The notes under the pieces: generated by a model
Seen by the model: only the letters and a program-made list of their open reading frames with translations
Told to the model about the DNA's origin: nothing
Database searches by the model: none
From: Cheiracanthium punctorium
Lineage: Eukaryota; Arthropoda; Arachnida; Araneae; Cheiracanthiidae
NCBI GenBank assembly: GCA_038373885.1
Contig: JAWZYV010011611.1
Location: 186,001 to 250,000, forward strand
Length of the DNA stretch: 64,000 nt
Direction of reading: 5' to 3'
Position numbers and translations under genes: made by a program
Part shown: piece by piece, positions 26,651-63,930 of the stretch
Layout: each line of letters begins with the position of its first letter
Numbering within the stretch: position 1 is the first letter of the stretch

Positions 26651-26654
26651 TTAA

Positions 26655-27030
26655 ACCTTTTCCCGGCGGGGAAATTTTGGCCGTGCTGTTTCAGAAGGAC
26701 GCGAGCATCTGAAAAACGCTTTCCCCCATTTCAGTGACTCTTAGCTGAAGCTGCTATTTGTGCAACAATCATTGATGGATTACTCTTTCCCGCCACCGAA
26801 GTAAAACGAACTTCTTGAACAAGGGGATTACCTTTACGCCTATATTCTCTTTTTCAGGAACTGGGGTGCAACTGAATTGATGGATGGATGTTGACATCTC
26901 TCCGCGCCGGTCCAGTACAGGTGAGTAATTATAGAGGAGGAAAGCATTAGTTGGTCGAAATATGAACCAAGCCGGTCCTTTAAGGTGTTCTACTGCTTGG
27001 TTGAAAAATCGACCGCCCGTCTTCAAAGGG
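26655..27030. mobile_element. piggyBac-type miniature, copy 1
   Basis: Flanked by TTAA at 26651-26654 and 27031-27034. Ends accttttcccggcggggaa and (reversed) ccctttgaagacgggcgg. 376 bp, non-coding; over 90 percent like 31186-31560 by eye. The minus-strand open frame 26769-27089 is a shadow. Confidence 0.88.
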
Positions 27031-30648: not shown

Positions 30649-31085
30649 TGTAGAATCCGAAGTTTCGATCAGAGCGCAGATGCCTCACCCCTTCCTTTGA
30701 GACCCCCCCTGACGTGGAAGGTCACGTGGTGTTTTTGTTTTTCGTGGCTGGCGAATTCGGAAGAAGCGAGCCGTTAGTTAGAGTGAAGTCACAGAGACGT
30801 TCGGAGATATTGAACGGAGATGGAATGGAACCTTTTTTCGTGCATGCCTGGGTGGCTTGTTTTATTCTTTCTTTCTTTTAAAGAAGCGAATCCTGTGTGG
30901 ATGATATTTTGTTAACGTACCTAAGTGGTGTAAAAGATTTCTTGTATAACTTTGTAAATAGAAGATTCATTAAATGTGTGTGTGTCCTAACAATTTTCGA
31001 CTAATCATTCCATATATGTCCTGCTTTTAATTTGAAGCACATAACAGTAATTCGTCAACTCATAGGGTCAGTATACGACCCTATA
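30649..31085 (+). repeat. 5' LTR
   Basis: 437 bp from TGTAG to CTATA, weak terminal inverted repeat. Differs from 34436-34872 at only about eight positions by eye (for example ccttccttt/cctttcttt, gtgtgtgtg/gtgagtgtg, aactcatag/aacacatag). Confidence 0.92.
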
Positions 31086-31090
31086 TAATT

Positions 31091-31110
31091 TGGGGACTTT
31101 CACCGGGATT
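31091..31110 (+). promoter_or_regulatory. putative primer-binding site
   Basis: TGGGGACTTTCACCGGGATT starts five bases after the LTR. The TGG start fits pairing with a tRNA 3' CCA end. The same sequence follows the second LTR (34878 onward). The matching tRNA was not determined. Confidence 0.55.
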
Positions 31111-31185
31111 GAATTAAGAGTCAGATGACTTTCACCGGGATGGAATTAGAATTAGATTCTATAGAATTAGATAGAATCTGATTAA

Positions 31186-31560
31186 CCTTTTCCCGGCGGG
31201 GAAATTTTGGCCATGCTGTTTCAGAAGGACGGGAGCATCTGAAAAATGCTTTCCCCCATTTCAGTGACTCTTAGCTGAAGCTGCTGTTTGTACAACAATC
31301 ATTGATGGATTACTCTTTCCCGCCCCCGAAGTAAAACGAACTTCTTGAACAAGGGGATTACCTTTACGCGTAAATTATCCTTTTCAGGAACTGGGGTGCA
31401 ACTGAATTGGTGGATGGATGTTGACATCTCTCCCCGCCGGTCCAGTACAGGTGAACAATTACAGAGGGGGAAAGCATTAGTTGGTCGAAATATGAACCAA
31501 GCCCGTCCTTTAAGGTGTTCTACTGCTTGGTTGAAAAATCGACCGCCCGTCTTCAAAGCG
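31186..31560. mobile_element. piggyBac-type miniature, copy 2, in the retrotransposon leader
   Basis: TTAA at 31182-31185 and 31561-31564. The second leader copy reads ctgattaaattgaaaag without the insert (about 34951-34970), an exact empty site with a single TTAA. 375 bp, non-coding. Confidence 0.95.
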
Positions 31561-31699
31561 TTAAATTGAAAAGAATAGAATTGGATAAGTGTGAAGAATA
31601 ACATGGAATATTGAACTGATATTTGTTTAAAGTATTTGTGCTTCAAGAAAGTTTTGTGTGCTCATCTGTTGTGGATTACCAGGGCGAGTTTGATCGCCG

Positions 31700-31741
31700 A
31701 AGACTACAAACTGTAAGTACTCAATTTTTGTATCAGTAAAC
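31700..31741 (+). promoter_or_regulatory. splice-donor-like site in retrotransposon leader
   Basis: aaact|GTAAGTACT about 30 bp before the gag start codon, conserved in the second copy (about 35110-35120). Could allow a spliced subgenomic RNA joined to the acceptor-like site at 34166-34203. Confidence 0.4.
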
Positions 31742-32532
31742 ATGTCTTACGTCGGAAAACATAGAAAAGAGGATATTATTAAATTAATGCGTGAACTGGA
31801 TTTAAAGATCCCCGATAACCCAACTATTGCTAAAATGAAACATATTGTTATTAATGATACGAAGTACGATGAAGAATTCACAAAATCAGTAACATTGCGG
31901 CGGACCGCGAAAGCGAAGAAAAGATTGCGCGGGAAAAATTAGAACAGGAGAAATTAGAACGTGAATTCCAATTGGAACAATTAAAATCAAAAAATTATGA
32001 GAAGGGTAACAGTACAGAACCTTTTGTAATCCAAAACAAAATAGATCTTACAAAAATAATCAAAAGTTTCGATCGAAGGATCCAAAAGCAGACATTAGCA
32101 CGTATCTCGCTCTCTTTGAGAGGCAAGCCACAAGAGTCGAAATTAAAAAAAGATGATTGGGTCACACACTTATTAGGATTTCTACCTCTAGACATCGCGC
32201 AAATCATACCACGAGAACCTGAAAATGTTTCAAATGATTATGATCACATAAAAGCAGTATTGCTGAAAAGATTTAAATTAACTGCAGAACAGTTTAGACA
32301 AAAGTTATTTTTTCATAAAAAAGAAAGTTCTTGTTCTTGGCGGGAATTCGCTTTCGAACTTAACCATTATTTTGAAGAATGGGTTCATGGTGTAAATGTT
32401 AAAGATTTCACTGGTCTTTGTGAACTGATAGTTTCTGACCAGCTAAAAAGAAGAGTGCCACAAGAGGTTAAAGAACATTTTATAGATAACTGGCATAAGT
32501 GGAACACTAGGGAGGAAATAGTGGAAAGTTAG
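31742..32532 (+). pseudogene. Gag remnant (frameshifted)
   Basis: Starts MSYVGKHRKEDIIKLMRELD. The first frame ends at 31942, but the sequence continues coherently in another frame from about 31886 (charged ESEEKIAREKLEQEKLERE helix) into the frame 31972-32532, which has the helical, tryptophan-containing pattern of LTR-retrotransposon Gag (for example DDWVTHLLGFLP, EEWVHGVNVKD). At least one frameshift near 31890 and one near 32525 break it. The second unit at 35141-35208 preserves only the first 23 codons. Confidence 0.75.
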
Positions 32533-32539
32533 AAGAATA

Positions 32540-32708
32540 TGAATCAGTTCGTGTTTTATCTAATAAAACATTTCCTAAAAATGTGAATGAAGAAAATGAC
32601 ACGTTTTCTAGCCCCGTGCCAGGGAAAGAATATAAAAATTTTGGAGCTACCAGGAAAAAATGTTATGCTTGTAATAGTTATTCACACAAAATTGCAGAAT
32701 GTAAATAA
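32540..32708 (+). pseudogene. Gag C-terminal part with CCHC zinc knuckle
   Basis: In a frame different from its neighbours: CYACNSYSHKIAEC at about 32658-32700 gives C-x2-C-x4-H-x4-C, the nucleocapsid knuckle. A stop (taa) follows at about 32704-32706. The open frame 32587-32778 is a shadow. Confidence 0.75.
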
Positions 32709-32768: not shown

Positions 32769-33881
32769 ATGGTTGTAGAAGAGCCAGGCAAAACCGAAAG
32801 CAAAAATAGATTCCGACGTGAAAGATATGATCGAGCAAAGTATAGTTATAGAAATAAAGCTGAATCGGTGGTAGAGAACAAAACTGTGAAATCCTGTAGT
32901 AATAAAATTGAGAAATATGCTAATATTTTTAATGTTGATGTGAGAGCAGTAATTGATACCGGTTCCGAAGTAACTTTGATTGACCAGGATATTTATGAAA
33001 AGATGGTATCTCCTATGTTATCCAGTACAGATATTGATTTGTGTGGTATCGATTCGGAAATAGTTTCACCCATTGGTTTCTTTAATTCTAAAATAGTGAT
33101 TGACAGTTGTACAGTGTATACTAATGTTTATGTTATGAAGCATATGCGCTTTAGTGCAGTCATTGGCATGGATGTAATATCGAAACTAGAATTTAATTTT
33201 GTGCAAGGGAATGTTAACGTAAAAAATGCAGCCATGATTGATGTAGTCTATCCTACCAAACGAGTTACTAATTTAGGTAAATACCTTTATTCCACACCTA
33301 ATTTCGAACCAGATGTACTTCCGGTTACATGTAAACAACAGTCTCTCGGGTTGCGAGAAGACAAACACTGCAAATTGTTAAAGAAAAAAATGCACAATAT
33401 GAAAGAGAAATCGGAGGTTATTAAAGAAACGGCTGATGAAGCTCAGTCACCTTCTCAAGAGGAAGTTTGCCGCAGCGAAAAGGTTGAAAGTAAGGTAGCT
33501 GCATTGAATAGAAAAATTCAGTTGCTGGAAGACGATCTAGAAAGATCAGAAGAAAAATTAAAAATTGCTATTCAAAAGTTAGAGGAAACTTCACAAGCAA
33601 CGGATGAAAACGAACGCATTCATAAATCTCTTGAAATTCGGTTAGGACAGGTTAGATCAATTGCTGAGGAATCTGACAGAAAATATGAAGAACTAGCATG
33701 TCGAATCGCCATGATAGAAGAGGACTCGAAACGCGCTGAAAAACGAGCAGCCATAGGTGAAAGTAGAACAGTAGAATTAGAAGAATTAAGAGGGGTTGGT
33801 AATAAAACGAAATCCCTTGAAGTCAGTGAAGAAAAGGCTCCGCAGAAAGAAGAAACATGTGATATAACTATGTGTCAATAA
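32769..33881 (+). CDS. retropepsin fused to tropomyosin coiled coil (370 codons)
   Basis: The longest open frame in the window. Residues 1-50 are a basic linker. Residues about 55-150 are an aspartic protease of the retroviral type: AVIDTGSEVTLID with the catalytic D-T-G at 63-65, and VIGMD at 131-135 as the C-terminal retropepsin motif. Residues about 202-370 are a tropomyosin: LLKKKMHNMKEK resembles the muscle-type N-terminus, then SKVAALNRKIQLLEDDLERS, ESDRKYEELACRIAMIE, AEKRAAIGESRTVELEEL and TKSLEVSEEKA. No introns interrupt it, so the tropomyosin part came from a spliced RNA. A stop at 33879-33881 ends the frame, but homology continues in the same frame to about 34001. The start codon is only the first Met in the open frame; in the intact ancestor the protease was probably made as part of a Gag-protease polyprotein. 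Function of the fusion is unknown. Confidence 0.85.
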   Translation: MVVEEPGKTESKNRFRRERYDRAKYSYRNKAESVVENKTVKSCSNKIEKYANIFNVDVRAVIDTGSEVTLIDQDIYEKMVSPMLSSTDIDLCGIDSEIVSPIGFFNSKIVIDSCTVYTNVYVMKHMRFSAVIGMDVISKLEFNFVQGNVNVKNAAMIDVVYPTKRVTNLGKYLYSTPNFEPDVLPVTCKQQSLGLREDKHCKLLKKKMHNMKEKSEVIKETADEAQSPSQEEVCRSEKVESKVAALNRKIQLLEDDLERSEEKLKIAIQKLEETSQATDENERIHKSLEIRLGQVRSIAEESDRKYEELACRIAMIEEDSKRAEKRAAIGESRTVELEELRGVGNKTKSLEVSEEKAPQKEETCDITMCQ

Positions 33882-34004
33882 TCACAGAAGCTTCGAGAAG
33901 CAGATCCTCGGGCTGAATTTGCTGAAAAATCTGTAGAAAAGCTTCAACCAGAAATGTATAAATTGGAAGTTGAAACCCTTGCAAAGAAAGAAAAAAAATC
34001 ATAA
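33882..34004 (+). pseudogene. tropomyosin C-terminal continuation after a nonsense codon
   Basis: Same frame as 32769-33881 beyond the TAA: QKLREADPRAEFAEKSVEKLQ, followed by a basic stretch ending at a stop at 34002-34004. Matches the tropomyosin block just before the C-terminal end (x-K-L-x-E-A-x-x-R-A-E-F-A-E-x-S-V-x-K-L). The spacing across the stop equals the family spacing, so the break looks like a point change. The last 20-25 family residues are not recognisable. Confidence 0.8.
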
Positions 34005-34165
34005 TATAGTGCAAGAAGAAAATAAAAAGAGTTATAAGAAAAGAAAGAAAAAAAGTGAAGGATTCTCGAATCCTATCCCGAAAGATGTACCTTTGAGTAC
34101 ATATCAAATAGACTTCAGCAGACTGTAGAACTTTTCATATTTTTAAATGACCTGTAAATAATGTA

Positions 34166-34203
34166 TTTTTCTTTTCTTTTTTTTTTTAAGTGTTTTATTT
34201 CAG
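34166..34203 (+). promoter_or_regulatory. splice-acceptor-like tract before the second LTR
   Basis: A long T/C tract (ttttcttttc, then a T-run) leading to gttttatttcag|atg. Textbook acceptor shape downstream of the tropomyosin remnant. Confidence 0.4.
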
Positions 34204-34261
34204 ATGTCCTTATGGTCCTGGGCGGTGAGGACACCGCAGGTCAGATGGCCGAGCCTGTAGA

Positions 34262-34435: not shown

Positions 34436-34872
34436 TGTAGAATCCGAAGTTTCGATCAGAGCGCAGATGCCTCACCCCTTTCTTTGAGACCCCCCTTGAC
34501 GTGGGAGGTCACGTGGTGTTTTTGTTTTTCGTGGCTGGCGAATTCGGAAGAAGCGAGCCGTTAGTTAGAGTGAAGTCACAGAGACGTTCGGAGATATTGA
34601 ACGGAAATGGAATGGAACCTTTTTTCGTGCATGCCTGGGTGGCTTGTTTTATTCTTTCTTTCTTTTAAAGAAGCGAATCCTGTGTGGATGATATTTTGTT
34701 AACGTACCTAAGTGGTGTAAAAGATTTCTTGTATAACTTTGTAAATAGAAGATTCATTAAATGTGAGTGTGTCCTAACAATTTTCGACTAATCATTCCGT
34801 ATATGTCCTGCTTTTAATTTGAAGCACATAACAGTAATTCGTCAACACATAGGGTCAGTATACGACCCTATA
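34436..34872 (+). repeat. second LTR (3' LTR of the tropomyosin element)
   Basis: 437 bp, same ends as 30649-31085 and about 98 percent identical by eye. It is followed by the primer-binding site and leader again, so it also acts as the 5' LTR of the truncated second unit. Confidence 0.92.
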
Positions 34873-35208
34873 TAATTTGGGGACTTTCACCGGGATTGAA
34901 TTAAGAGTCAGATGACTTTCACCGGGATGAAATTAGAATTAGATTCGATAGAATCTGATTAAATTGAAAAGAATAGAATTGGATAAGTGTGAAGAATAAC
35001 ATGGAATATTGAACTGATATTTGTTTAAAGTATTTGTGCTTCAAAGAAAGTTTTGTGTGCTCATCTGTTGTGGATTACCAGGGCGAGTTTGATCGCCGAA
35101 GACTACAAACTGTAAGTACTCAATTTTTGTATCAGTAAACATGTCTTACATCGGAAAACATAGAAAAGAGGATATTATTAAATTAATGCGTGAACTGGAT
35201 TTAAAGAT
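34873..35208 (+). pseudogene. second leader and truncated gag start
   Basis: Repeats 31086-31181 and 31565-31808 without the piggyBac-type insert. The gag ATG at 35141 is followed by 23 codons, then the sequence jumps into the LTR 3' part at 35209. Confidence 0.9.
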
Positions 35209-35268
35209 TTTAATTTGAAGCACATAACAGTAATTCGTCAACTCATAGGGTCAGTATACGACCCTATA
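35209..35268 (+). repeat. LTR 3'-end fragment
   Basis: tttaatttgaagcacataac ... to ctata matches the last 60 bp of the LTRs. It then runs into (TA)n and unrelated DNA, marking the outer right border of the tandem structure. Confidence 0.88.
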
Positions 35269-35541
35269 TATATATATGATAACACATTGAATGCGTCTTA
35301 TAACGTGCACTTCTCAATAATTGCCGTTAGAAGACTACCGTGTACACAGGCCTGTCGAGAGGGGGGGGGGGCAAGAGGGGGATTCCCCCGGGCCCATGTT
35401 TTCTGGGGGCTCGGGTTAAACTTTCAAAAAAAAAATTCTGTATAGACAGAAATAGAATTCGCGAAAACCAACACCGACAGAAATAAGTAAAGACGAGACG
35501 AGGTCCTAAACGAAACTAGATTGCTCTTTTATTTATTTATT

Positions 35542-38246: not shown

Positions 38247-38405
38247 CAATGGCGTATCCAAGGGGTGGGGATAGGGGGTCACAACCCCCCATGAGGAATT
38301 TTTTGCCATACAAAATGTATATTCTTTATCACAAACCTGTATACATATATGTGAGTTGCAGTAGTCGTACCCCCCTCCAATGAAAAATTTCTGGCTACGC
38401 CACTC
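38247..38405. mobile_element. hAT-type miniature (GGCGTAGCCAG family), copy 2, reversed
   Basis: Reverse complement of the family; flanked by atggatag and atgaaaag (6 of 8 match). A minus-strand open frame 38178-38450 is a shadow. Confidence 0.82.
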
Positions 38406-42104: not shown

Positions 42105-42261
42105 ATATAACCGCTCAAGTAACCTTATGTGTATTTTACAAAGTTTTTAGTATTTTACCTAAGTAGATCTTAGGTAAGTTACTAAAAAACTAGTTAGTTT
42201 AGAGAATTACTAACAACCTTGTTGTATTGTTTATTTGTTTCTTTAGTGTTATAGCAAGTCT

Positions 42262-42475
42262 ACATGAGGGATATCTGCCTAAAATGGAGGTGCCTTCGTC
42301 CGAGGACTTTCTAAGGGATTTTAATGCGTATTCACGTTACATCTGGAGAAAAACGCCCAAAACTCTAGACCGTTAGGTTGATAGCTACGCGGTAGGTTCG
42401 AATGCGTAACACTCTTCACATTTCAGCAATCTTTTCCATGTTCAGTGTCTTATCCATTCGGTCAAGGGGGGACCC
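42262..42475 (-). mobile_element. SINE, CTCCAGATGTAACGTG family, in left arm
   Basis: Minus strand: ttgaccgaatggataagaca head, then tagagttttgggcg, ctccagatgtaacgtgaata and agacttgcta tail. Mirror copy at 63556-63790. Confidence 0.75.
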
Positions 42476-45009
42476 CAATCTACTTGTAAATGCTAAATAA
42501 TATAAACATATTCTTAGAAATTGCATACATATGTCATGCTGTCAGAATATTTTTAAAGGCACTGTTGGCCAAAATTACAAAGCTTTGCAGTCAAAACTTT
42601 CTATTACAGTGGTGTACTCGAAAGTTAGTTACTCCAAACTAATAATAACCAATTCATAAATAATTAAAATTAATAATTTAGTTAATTTTACTTTAAGAAT
42701 AATTACAATTAACTAATTGCAAGCATTAAATTGAATTTTCTAAAAACTGAGCGTCCCTCCCAAGGACGTATTTAAGAAAGGGGTCCAGGGGGACCGACCC
42801 CCCCGAAATTTTGATTTTTTTGTTACTAAAATGATATACTGTTTTTGTGAAAAATTCTTTCTTTTTTACCATTTGGACCCCCCTCTAAAATGATTTTCTG
42901 GATACGTGCCCGGTCCGTCCATTTTTTATCTTAGGAGTACACCACTGTAATAGCAAGATAATTCTCTCCATCCCGCACCCAACGAAAAGAAATACCTCTA
43001 AAATTGAGTTGCTTCAAAGTTGCATGATTCGGTTTTAATAATCTAACATATACAAGAGAAGATTTTTGAGCACTTCTTTAACTAAAAAGTATTCTACATC
43101 AAACGTCCCGCTTTCGAAAACTCTTCACAATTTATTACATTTAATCTTAAAACTTCAGACTCAGAACACACAAACAAAAATAATCTGAAGCACAGATTTC
43201 AAATACTCACTAAAGTAGTAATATATAGTAAAAGCGTATCATAGCTTATGCGTCGGCCCTATTGTTTATTAAAAGCTTTTAAGAGCGCGCTACTCATTAA
43301 AAAATGGGCCAGTTAAGATAGATGTTTATTATTGGAGGTTTTTCTTAACAGTACTTTATTCGGGACCGTAAATTCCGATAAGTGAGCTTTTGGGTGCATT
43401 ATAACCAGAAGTATTAAACCCAGCTCACACAGTTATAACCATTAGGTTTATTTAACATTATAACTTATTTGAATTTAAGCATTTTTTTAAATTCCAGCAA
43501 ACATATTATTAAAAAAAAGAAAGAAAAGCTTTAAAAATTAAATTAAAAACAAACTACTTTTAATGCTCAGTGAAAATTATATAGCTCAAAAGACCATTTA
43601 CTAAGGTAATCTTTAAATAATAAAAATACTTTTAAATAGCGTTGCCTCTAGCCACTATGTTCCAACAAACTCACGCTAAGCCAGCGAGCAAAAATTCACG
43701 CCTGAAAGTGAAATACCATCTTTCTCGAGCAAACGGTCAAACGAGCAACCGCGATAAACGAGGGGGGGGGGGGGGAAACAGTCAAGAACCCCACCCAACC
43801 TCTATACGTCTGCTAGCGAGCGACACCAAAAATAACTAAATATTCCATATCCCATCTCGGCCCGACACAGTTAACCTCCTTATACCTTATGACGCCACGG
43901 AAAAAACTGTCATTTAAACGGTGAAAGCAGTAGTGTATACAGATTTACCTTTCGGAGGGGAGGGGGTGGCGATCCGGTATTTTAAATCTTACTGTTACTA
44001 GAATTATTTTAAATGCTTCACATTAACTGTTTTTTTAATTGCTTCACACTTTCGGAGGGGTCCTCCCCGCCTCCTCGCCCGTAAGTACACCCTTGGCTCA
44101 AAGCACCTATAAATCTTCAAATAATATAAACTGCGCAGTGGCGGATTAATGCAAGTTTGTCAGTGGGGGGGGGGGGGCGGCGGTTAGTTAGAAGATTGAC
44201 ATATACATCCATTTTATGGAAGTAAAATGTTATCTTTTACATTAATTTTTCTTTTCTCGGTGTGGGGGGGACGGTCGCCCCCTCTCCCCCTTTTAATCCG
44301 CCCTTGGCATATAGTTACTGTGACACATATTCTAGCAAAGGAGAAATTTGCTCCGACAATCAAGAAAAAAAACAAAAAATCAAAGGCCAAATACACGCAT
44401 CTGGTGTCTGTGAGCGAACGAAACAACCTCCCCCCCCCCATACCGCTTCGAAACGAAACCAGTAACAGAAAACCTCCCCTCGCCGAGCACATCTAAAAGT
44501 AAACGGCGAAAGAGCCTTTTATCCGTGACAATCACCTAAAGAGTAAACGAGTACTCATTTTCTTATAGGTGACTATCACCATTTAAATCTAAACGTTGAC
44601 TATCACCCTTTAAAACTAAACGGTGACAGTCACCTAAAGAGTAAACGAGTACTCAATCACCATTAAGGATCATTGCTACTCCAAAGTCGCAATCACTCTT
44701 TTCACCGATACGCAAAAATCACTTTTAAGCCCTTCCCTAGCCCATCCCAAGCTCATACTCTGGAGCCCCAACAGTGGCCAAGCGCATAGCGCTCTGAACT
44801 GCCCAGACAGCACAGCAAATTTGCATCAAACTTGCAGTAAGCTTGATTTATCAAGTCAATAAACTTGAATTAAGCTTGAAAATTTCAAGCGTGTAAGCTT
44901 AATGCAAGCTTGAATCAAGTGTTCAAGTTTACACTTGTCCAACTTGCATTAAGCTTGACATAGCAAGCCTAATTCAAACTTAAAAAATTTCCCCCCCAAA
45001 AAAAAATCT

Positions 45010-45673: not shown

Positions 45674-45847
45674 CAGGGGCGTAGCCAGAAATTTTTCATG
45701 GAGGGGGGGGGGTTACGACTACGGAAACTCACATATATGCATACATATGTGTGATGAGGGAGTGAAGAATATACATTTTGTACGGCAAAAAATTCCTCAA
45801 GGGGGGTTATGACCCCCCTAAACCCCCGTCCCTTGGCTACGCCCCTG
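45674..45847. mobile_element. hAT-type miniature (GGCGTAGCCAG family), copy 3
   Basis: Ends caggggcgtagccagaaa / ggctacgcccctg, interior as in 34262-34433. No exact 8-bp duplication; ccaagct occurs on both sides with an offset. Confidence 0.85.
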
Positions 45848-61165: not shown

Positions 61166-62055
61166 TGTCGTCAGCTCTAGGGATGGGCTTAATGGTGATT
61201 TTCGCGTATCGGTGAAAAGAGTGATTGCTACTCTGGAGTAGCAGTGATCCTTAATGGTGATTGAGTACTCATTTACTCTTTAGGTGACCGTCACCGTTTA
61301 GTTTTAAATGGTGATAGTCACCTATAAGAAAATGAGTACTCGCTTACTCTTTAGGTGATTGTCACGGATAAAAGGCTCTTTCGCCGTTTACTTTTAGATG
61401 TGCTCGGCGAGAGGAAGTTTTCTGTTACTGGTTTCGCTTCGAAGCGGTATGGGGGGGGGGGGTTGTATCATTTGCTCTTTGGCCTTTGATTTTTTTTTCT
61501 TGATTGTCGGAGCAAATTTCTCCTTTGCTAGAATATGTGTCACAGTAACTATATGCCAAGGGCGGATTAAAGGTAGGGGGGCGGAGGGGGTGACCGCCCT
61601 CCCCGAGAAAAAAGAAATTAATGTAAACGATCCTAGTTTACTTCCATAAAATGGATGTATATGCCAATCTTCTAACTAACCGCCTCCCCCCTGACAAACT
61701 TGCATTAATCTGCCACTGCGCAGTTTATAGTATTTGAAGATTTATAGGTGCTTTGAGCCAAGGATGTACTTAATGGCGAGGAGGGAGGAGGCCCCCTCAT
61801 GAAGCAATTAGAAAAACAGTTAATATGAAGCATTTAAATTAATTGTAACAGTAAGATTTAAAATACCGCATCGCTCACCCCCCCCCCTCGTCCGAAAGAT
61901 AAACCTGTACTACTGCTTTCACCGTTTAAATGACAGTTTTTTCCGTAGCGTCATAAGGTATACGGAGATTTACTGTGTCGGAACGAGGTGGGATATGGGA
62001 TATTTAGTTATTTTTGGTGTCGCTTGGTGGTGGAGACGTATAGAGGTTGGGTTGG

Positions 62056-62215
62056 CAGAGGTGCCAAGTCTCCGGCTTTTTACGAGAGTTTTCCTACCAC
62101 TAACTTCTACTTGCAAGTTTTTACTAATTAATTCCAAATATTTTATGTATAATAAAACTGTTCAAAAATTGTGGTGAGAAATCTCCCGGAAAAAGCCGGA
62201 GACTTGGCAGCTCTG
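62056..62215. mobile_element. 160-bp miniature, right arm only
   Basis: Ends cagaggtgccaagtctccgg / (reversed) cagagctgccaagtctccgg, 25 bp nearly perfect. The left arm at about 43790 reads straight through (accccacccaacctcta), so it inserted after the arms formed. Related to 60170-60327. The open frame 61995-62177 is an artefact. Confidence 0.88.
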
Positions 62216-63555
62216 AGTTAGGTATGGGTTCTTGACTGTTTCCCTCCCCCCGCCTTCCTTCTCTGTCGTTGATTGCGGTTGCTCGTTTGACTGTTTGTTC
62301 GAGAAAGATGGTATTTTACTTTCAGGGGTGAATTTTTGCTCGCTCGCTTAGCGTCAGTTTGTTGGAACATAGTGGCTAGAGGCAACGCTATTTAAAAGTA
62401 TTTTTATTATTTAAAGATTACCTTAGTAAATGGTGTTTTGAGCTATATAATTTTCACTGAGTATTAAAAATAGTTTTTTTAATTTAATTTTTAAAGCTTT
62501 TCTTTCTTTTTTTTAATAATATGTTTGCTGGAATTTAAAAAATTGCTTAAATTCAAATAAGTTATGCTAAATAAACCTAATGGTTATAACTGCGTGAGCT
62601 GGGTTTAATACTTCTGGTTATAATGCAACCAAAAGCTCACTTGTCGGAATTTACGGTCCCGAATAAAGTACTATTAAGAAAAACCTGCAATAATAAACAT
62701 CTATCTTAACTGGCCCTTTTTTTAATGAGTAGCGCGCTCTTAAAAGCTTTTAATAAACAATAGGGCCGACGCATGAGCTATGATACGCTTTTACTATATA
62801 TTAGTACTTTAGTGAGTATTTAAAATCTGTGCTTCAGATTATTTTTGTTTGTGTGTTCTGAGTCTGAAGTTTTAAGATTAAATGTAATAAATTGTGAAGA
62901 ATTTTCGAAAGTGGGACGTTTGATGTAGAATACTTTTTAGTTAAAGAAGTGCTCAAAAATCTTCTCTTGTATGTGTTAGATTATTAAAACCGAATCATGC
63001 TACTTTGAAGCAACTCAATTTTAGAGGTCTTTCTTTTCGTTGGGTGCGGGATGGAGAGAATTATCTTGCTATTACAGTGGTGTACTCCTAAGATAAAAAA
63101 TGAAGGGACCAGGCACGTATCCAGAAAAACATTTTGGAGGGCGTCCAAATGGTAAAAAAGAAAGAATTTTTCACAGAAACAGTATATCATTTTAGTAACA
63201 AAAAAATCAAAATTTCGGGGGGGGGGGGTCGGTCCCCCTGGACCCCTTTCTTAAAAACGTCCTTGAGACGGAAGCTCATTTTTTTAGAAAATTCAACTTA
63301 AATGTATGCAATTACTTAATTGTAATCATTCTTCAAAAGAAAATTAAACTAAATTATTCATTTCAATTATTTATGAATTGGTTATTATTACTTTGGAGTA
63401 ACTGACTTTAGAGTACACTACTGTAATAGAAAGTTTTGACTGCAAAGCATTGTAATTTTGACCAACAGTGCCTTTAAAAAAATTCTGACAACATGACATA
63501 TGTTTGCAATTTCTAAAAATATGTTTATATTATTTAGCATTTACAACTAGATTGG

Positions 63556-63790
63556 GGCCCCACCTTGACTGAATGGATAAGACACTGAACATGGAACTGA
63601 GTGCTGAAGTGTGAAGATTCCACGTTCAAACCTACCGCCGTAGCTAGCAACCTAACGGGCCAGAGTTTCGGGCGGTTTTCTCCAGATGTAACGTGAATAC
63701 GCATTAAAACCCTTTAAAGAGTCCTCAGACCAAGGCACCTCCATCTTAGGCAGATACCCCTCGTGTAGACTTGCTATAACACTAAACAAA
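63556..63790 (+). mobile_element. SINE, CTCCAGATGTAACGTG family, in right arm
   Basis: ccttgactgaatggataagaca head, agagtttcgggcggttttct, ccagatgtaacgtgaata, aggcacctccatc, tgctataacactaaac tail. Mirror of 42262-42475. Confidence 0.75.
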
Positions 63791-63930
63791 CAAACAATAC
63801 CACAAGGTTGTTAGTAAGTCTCTAAACTACCCAGTCTCTAAACTAACTAGTTTTTTAGTAACTTACCTAAGATCTACTTAGGTAAAATACTAAAAAACTT
63901 CGTAAAATAACACCATAAGGGTTACTTGAG

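Follow-up and report, generated by a model that had tools for sequence, protein, structure and literature searches.

A tropomyosin fused in frame to the protease of an LTR element family in the spider Cheiracanthium punctorium

In the genome of Cheiracanthium punctorium, a tropomyosin without introns is fused to the protease of an LTR element, and this fusion is dispersed through the genome. Very probably, a Ty3-type LTR element captured, a single time, a spliced short-isoform mRNA of the host gene TmB, and the resulting non-autonomous Gag–protease–tropomyosin element was amplified in trans to ~100 sites. We describe the copy in a 64,000-nucleotide stretch (the window; contig JAWZYV010011611.1, positions 186,001 to 250,000), for which a sequence-only reading had proposed the capture, together with the family size, the donor and the probable partner, which go beyond that reading.

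Results

An LTR unit with a protease–tropomyosin frame

The unit in the window has the following parts, all on the forward strand.

30649–31087, +: 5′ LTR, TGTAGA...GACCCTATA, with 7 mismatches in 439 positions to 34436–34874
31088–31741, +: leader, holding an inserted short repeat at 31184–31560
31742–32708, +: gag-like region, with two frame changes and one stop in the window copy
32892–33350, +: retropepsin domain, DTG at 32955–32963, then VIGMD; PF12384 in sister copies
33378–34003, +: tropomyosin cargo, TmB exons 1b and 3–7, then exon-8/9-like sequence
33879–33881, +: TAA stop, private to the window copy
34004–34261, +: 3′ tail of the element, present in 30/30 loci including the window copy, partial in L025
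34262–34433, +: MITE-like insert; its 8-bp duplication, CCTGTAGA, is at the edge of the LTR
34436–34874, +: 3′ LTR, pairing with 30649–31087
34875–35270, +: remnant of a second unit, with leader, gag start and a 63-base LTR end fragment (35208–35270)

The near-identity of the flanking LTRs, claimed in the sequence-only reading, is borne out by the mismatch count. The gag-like region of the window copy is disrupted by frame changes near 31910 and 32530 and by the TAA at 32706–32708, as judged from the open reading frames and the sequence, and a CCHC motif, CYACNSYSHKIAEC, was read by eye at 32661–32702. Reverse transcriptase, RNase H and integrase are absent among the listed open reading frames of the window unit, which include no long extra frame as an env candidate. 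No clear polypurine tract was seen by eye, and the tRNA and Rfam scans returned 0 matches. The short repeat in the leader (~375 bases) is 95% identical to 26654–27028 and is perhaps, at a guess, SINE-like; the second leader, 34875–35207, is without it. The truncated second unit uses the middle LTR in common with the main unit, the piece at 35208–35270 being a third LTR. The MITE-like insert has relatives at 45674–45847 and 38251–38404, is found in none of the 29 other loci compared, and is presumably hAT-like, judging from the 8-bp length of its duplication. A large inverted repeat lies in pieces at 42231–44740 and 61177–63797 of the window, 88–99% complementary, with arms 16–21 kb apart.

The open reading frame at 32769–33881 comprises 370 codons, in which a DTG retropepsin is followed in frame by tropomyosin, as had been read from the letters. 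Residues 204–365 match Pfam Tropomyosin at E 2.3e-33. All 47 protein-database matches carry this domain and none has a protease domain, the best being a tropomyosin from the scorpion Centruroides vittatus (59%, with 34% of the frame covered). Matches among solved structures (25 distinct sequences, E up to 0.01) consist of tropomyosin, GCN4–tropomyosin chimeras and the Drosophila protein SD21996p, which appears in three rows without tropomyosin in its listed name. For the protease, three aspartic-protease families match the window copy at E 0.001–0.005, all under the cut-off. PF12384, the Ty3 peptidase, lies above the cut-off in three of six sister copies and below it in the other three and the window copy, and it is through these three that the protease is recognised as Ty3-type. 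Of 135 candidates from a protein search with the protease part, not one reached E 0.001. The TAA at 33879–33881 ends the fusion early in the window copy, and the corresponding codon is not a stop in any of the 29 other copies compared; in L028 there is a stop shortly before it, and L010, L020, L023 and L030 have other stops further on. The motif RAEFAE, which the earlier reading had counted within the fusion frame, falls past this TAA in the window copy.

TmB, the second tropomyosin gene of the host, as the donor

Two tropomyosin genes are present in the host: TmA (C10909), with a first exon of muscle type, and TmB (C14220). By blastn to TmB, the cargo contains the following exons.

33378–33484, +: exon 1b
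33481–33616, +: exon 3
33629–33695, +: exon 4, in part
33696–33763, +: exon 5
33762–33837, +: exon 6
33835–33900, +: exon 7

In the host, exon 1b begins with an ATG at C14220:433696, 12 codons ahead of the start of the element homology; exon 3 lies at 462392 and exons 4–7 reach 474008, with GT/AG signals, so that these exons are spread over 40.3 kb (C14220:433696–474008). In the element they are consecutive and intronless, at 80–88% DNA identity. The alignment to the host gene therefore agrees with the earlier claim that the tropomyosin was taken from spliced RNA. No exon 8 or 9 of TmB was found up to C14220:483000. Over exons 3–7, element and TmB are identical at 103 of 138 residues (dS 0.27, dN 0.121), and over exons 3–6, dS between element and TmA is saturated, which rules out TmA as the donor. 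Skipping of exon 2 in a muscle tropomyosin was likewise ruled out, the N-terminal piece fitting TmB exon 1b in both length and DNA. By sequence comparison, the donor is thus identified as TmB and the captured message as its short (exon-1b) isoform mRNA. Exon-1b isoforms of tropomyosin are cytoskeletal. Since the 5′ exon of the cargo is the short-isoform first exon of TmB, the cargo is probably of cytoskeletal rather than muscle type, and the 'muscle protein' of the sequence-only reading is not supported. A tropomyosin exon-3 place on C12172 (L041, 9897–9995), the third such place, is TmB-like with a 4-residue gap and is either a duplicate or a pseudogene.

The absence of introns, together with an A-rich stretch downstream of the cargo, would also be expected had a LINE-made processed tropomyosin copy landed in an ordinary LTR element that then lost pol and was amplified as a chimera. 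We hold this course of events to be very unlikely: it requires the extra events of pol loss and in-frame fusion, and neither the ATG of the host nor the 12 codons that lead up to the homologous part can be recognised in the element. Unsystematic inspection noticed no duplication around the cargo.

A single capture followed by amplification

We searched the 2.53-Gb genome with the tropomyosin part as the query. Among the best 150 of 240 candidates, at least 139 matches merged within 3.5 kb into at least 108 places, three of which are host tropomyosin exons and at least 105 are element places, though a few of these may represent two parts of the same copy (C4587) or sequence duplicated in the assembly (C5282/C6051 and C598/C14596, with equal scores). 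The window copy and 69 others of the at least 105 (29 from the best and 40 from the next) were analysed. The protease–tropomyosin junction lies in an unbroken alignment in 68 of the 69 copies, the exception being L099, and all 69 align across a 14-codon deletion in exon 4, the 42 host bases being matched in none. Because junction and deletion are common to these copies, the tropomyosin was captured once and then amplified to about 100 sites. The dispersed places share both marks, and it is the chimera itself, with the host sequence intronless inside an LTR unit, that was copied. Seen by eye, the deletion is close to two repeats of the host sequence, TCTTGAAAACC and TCTTGAAACC, and a slip of the reverse transcriptase might yield such a deletion.

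The median pairwise divergence among copies is 5.6% (2208 pairs). Downstream of the cargo, the common tail is present in each of the 30 first loci, among them the window copy, and LTR sequence in 29 of them, all but L025. Six of the 30 (L002, L008, L016, L026, L027 and L029) have a frame that stays open over 500 codons upstream of the cargo, as far as the stretch extends; their open frames measure 779–793 codons, with a single TAA within the match in L029. In intact copies, Gag, protease and tropomyosin therefore make up a single frame. The frame of L002 continues for 228 codons, counted from the first of the cargo, and terminates in a lysine-rich tail.

Among 20 copies examined with their upstream sequence, 18 have an LTR at either end, partial in three of them, and the divergence within pairs is 0.2–4.8%. 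Both element ends could be placed by pattern in 12 of the 20, and ends were not found in eight. With the LTR end set at GACCCTATA, the same 4 bases stand on both sides in nine of the 12 copies, four of these duplications being plain TATA and five other sequences; L015, L018 and L019 have no matching duplication. This end was chosen post hoc, an end at GACCCTA giving 4/12 matches, one base later 0 and two bases later 9. When pairings were shuffled and the best of the three possible ends was taken, nine matches were reached in 4 of 20,000 trials. Paired LTRs (18/20) with a short target-site duplication (9/12) are what is expected of Ty3/gypsy elements. An assembly join or a chance likeness of coiled coils, the former named by the earlier reading as a possible undoing of its claim, found no support and has a negligible probability in our judgement, given the junction common to 68 of 69 copies, the target duplications and the tropomyosin domain of every protein match.

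Different constraint on protease and tropomyosin

Variants were tallied in 70 copies, with tropomyosin taken as exons 1b and 3–7 only. Variants in single copies are near-neutral, at 1.00 (protease) and 1.11 (tropomyosin) of the neutral N/S. Protease variants present in at least three copies comprise 39 N and 37 S, or 0.40 of neutral (p 7e-5). Because this ratio is well below neutral, the protease stayed functional in the copied lineage. For tropomyosin, the variants in at least three copies comprise 64 N and 34 S, which is 0.77 of neutral (p 0.125). When a wider range of codons was included, the Fisher p was 0.046 (188 N and 63 S in singletons vs 74 N and 41 S in at least three copies), with codons carrying two or more changes, 24 and 48 in this tally, left out. 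As the wider range gave 0.046 and exons 1b and 3–7 only 0.125, we do not claim purifying selection on tropomyosin residues.

It is an even bet, and compatible with capture and amplification in trans, that the tropomyosin is passive filler in an element spreading via Gag, protease and LTR signals alone. The ratio of its variants in at least three copies, not significantly below neutral, fits this, as do a frame-breaking deletion common to at least three copies, coiled-coil core positions that are not better kept than others (13/40 vs 22/99 changed, p 0.28), and a dN/dS of 0.45 against host TmB, which covers both branches jointly and is consistent with near-neutral change on the element side. 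The distribution of stops speaks against it: none of 98 tropomyosin variants in at least three copies is a stop (p 0.011 vs the neutral share), compared with 15 of the 220 variants found in single copies and 5 of the 58 found in two, the latter partly reflecting the near-identical copy pairs L068/L073, L030/L078 and L024/L064, and codons 205–400 are free of stops in 47 of the 70 copies. In the tropomyosin, the open frame thus seems to have been retained and the residues hardly so. More doubtfully, the tropomyosin may be of use to the element by extending Gag–protease with a coiled coil that would assemble with, or move along, host actin filaments, the frame therefore being kept open over repeated copying as its residues drift from the host protein.

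A candidate autonomous partner

With the protease as the query, the best 150 of 1578 candidates yielded at least 151 matches in two classes, tropomyosin copies vs places with longer frames. By hand count, at least 27 places have an open frame of exactly 1480 codons and 89–92% protease identity; among the matches listed, none of them coincides with a tropomyosin-carrying place. Many of these places have equal scores, and the group is perhaps a young, active autonomous family. By subtraction, the protease is followed by ~930 codons, a length that would suit a putative reverse transcriptase–RNase H–integrase region, and the 1480-codon relatives, sharing the same protease, are likely candidates for the autonomous parents. 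The sequence-only reading had seen the cargo as sitting in place of polymerase genes; the length of the related frames makes this likely.

Discussion

We propose that the RNA of a parent element and the spliced short-isoform mRNA of TmB would have been packaged together in a virus-like particle. By template switching, the reverse transcriptase would have jumped into exon 1b behind the protease and returned ahead of the 3′ tail, so that pol was skipped. This chimera, with its own LTRs, leader and tail, would then have been copied by enzymes supplied in trans by intact relatives with the 1480-codon frame.

Acute transforming retroviruses, in which host sequence replaces replication genes and is fused to Gag, are infectious and need a helper. 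The spider element resembles them in carrying host sequence where replication genes would be expected and in its Gag fusion; unlike them, it has a probably cytoskeletal cargo, and the window unit has no long extra frame as a possible env. The retrocopies of Tan et al. are reportedly mostly single, whereas an amplified family is found here, and we know of no reverse transcriptase in the maize element Bs1.

The sequence-only reading knew of no described example. As a kind, such captures have precedents in Bs1, other maize elements and Pxyfem of Plutella. Bs1 is an LTR element with transduced pieces of three host genes, a chimeric product and no full-length open reading frame (PMC13317346), and it is named as low-copy (PMC2774510). 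The spider element shares with it the transduced host sequence but, unlike this plant element, has one near-complete open reading frame and ~100 copies. In maize, at least 189 captures account for the gene fragments in 425 intact LTR elements (PMC2774510); these are plant elements with fragments, and a fusion to the protease frame is not mentioned in the passages of that paper. Pxyfem of Plutella xylostella places LTR-element gag beside spliced host cDNA, with template switching proposed, in W-chromosome tandem arrays that are a source of silencing RNA and in which LTRs were not found (PMC9674220). It likewise joins gag sequence and spliced host cDNA in an animal, whereas the spider copies are dispersed and have LTRs and an open frame. 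For metazoan LTR-mediated retroposition, Tan et al. (2016) describe template switching at microsimilarities between element RNA and host mRNA (PMC5408686, PMC9674220). Passages on snail retrocopies (PMC9719178) contain nothing on such a case, and among the papers listed in searches of the open-access literature, none dealt with a tropomyosin carried by such an element. That LTR elements capture host genes is already known; in an animal, a near-complete cargo in frame at ~100 copies is a new form of this.

Donor gene, isoform, single capture and many datable copies are all present within one genome. The fate of a captured host gene can therefore be asked directly, be it passive cargo, a source of donor-silencing RNA or a newly added component of the particle, and ~100 animal copies show what the cited papers report mainly in plants or as tandem remnants.
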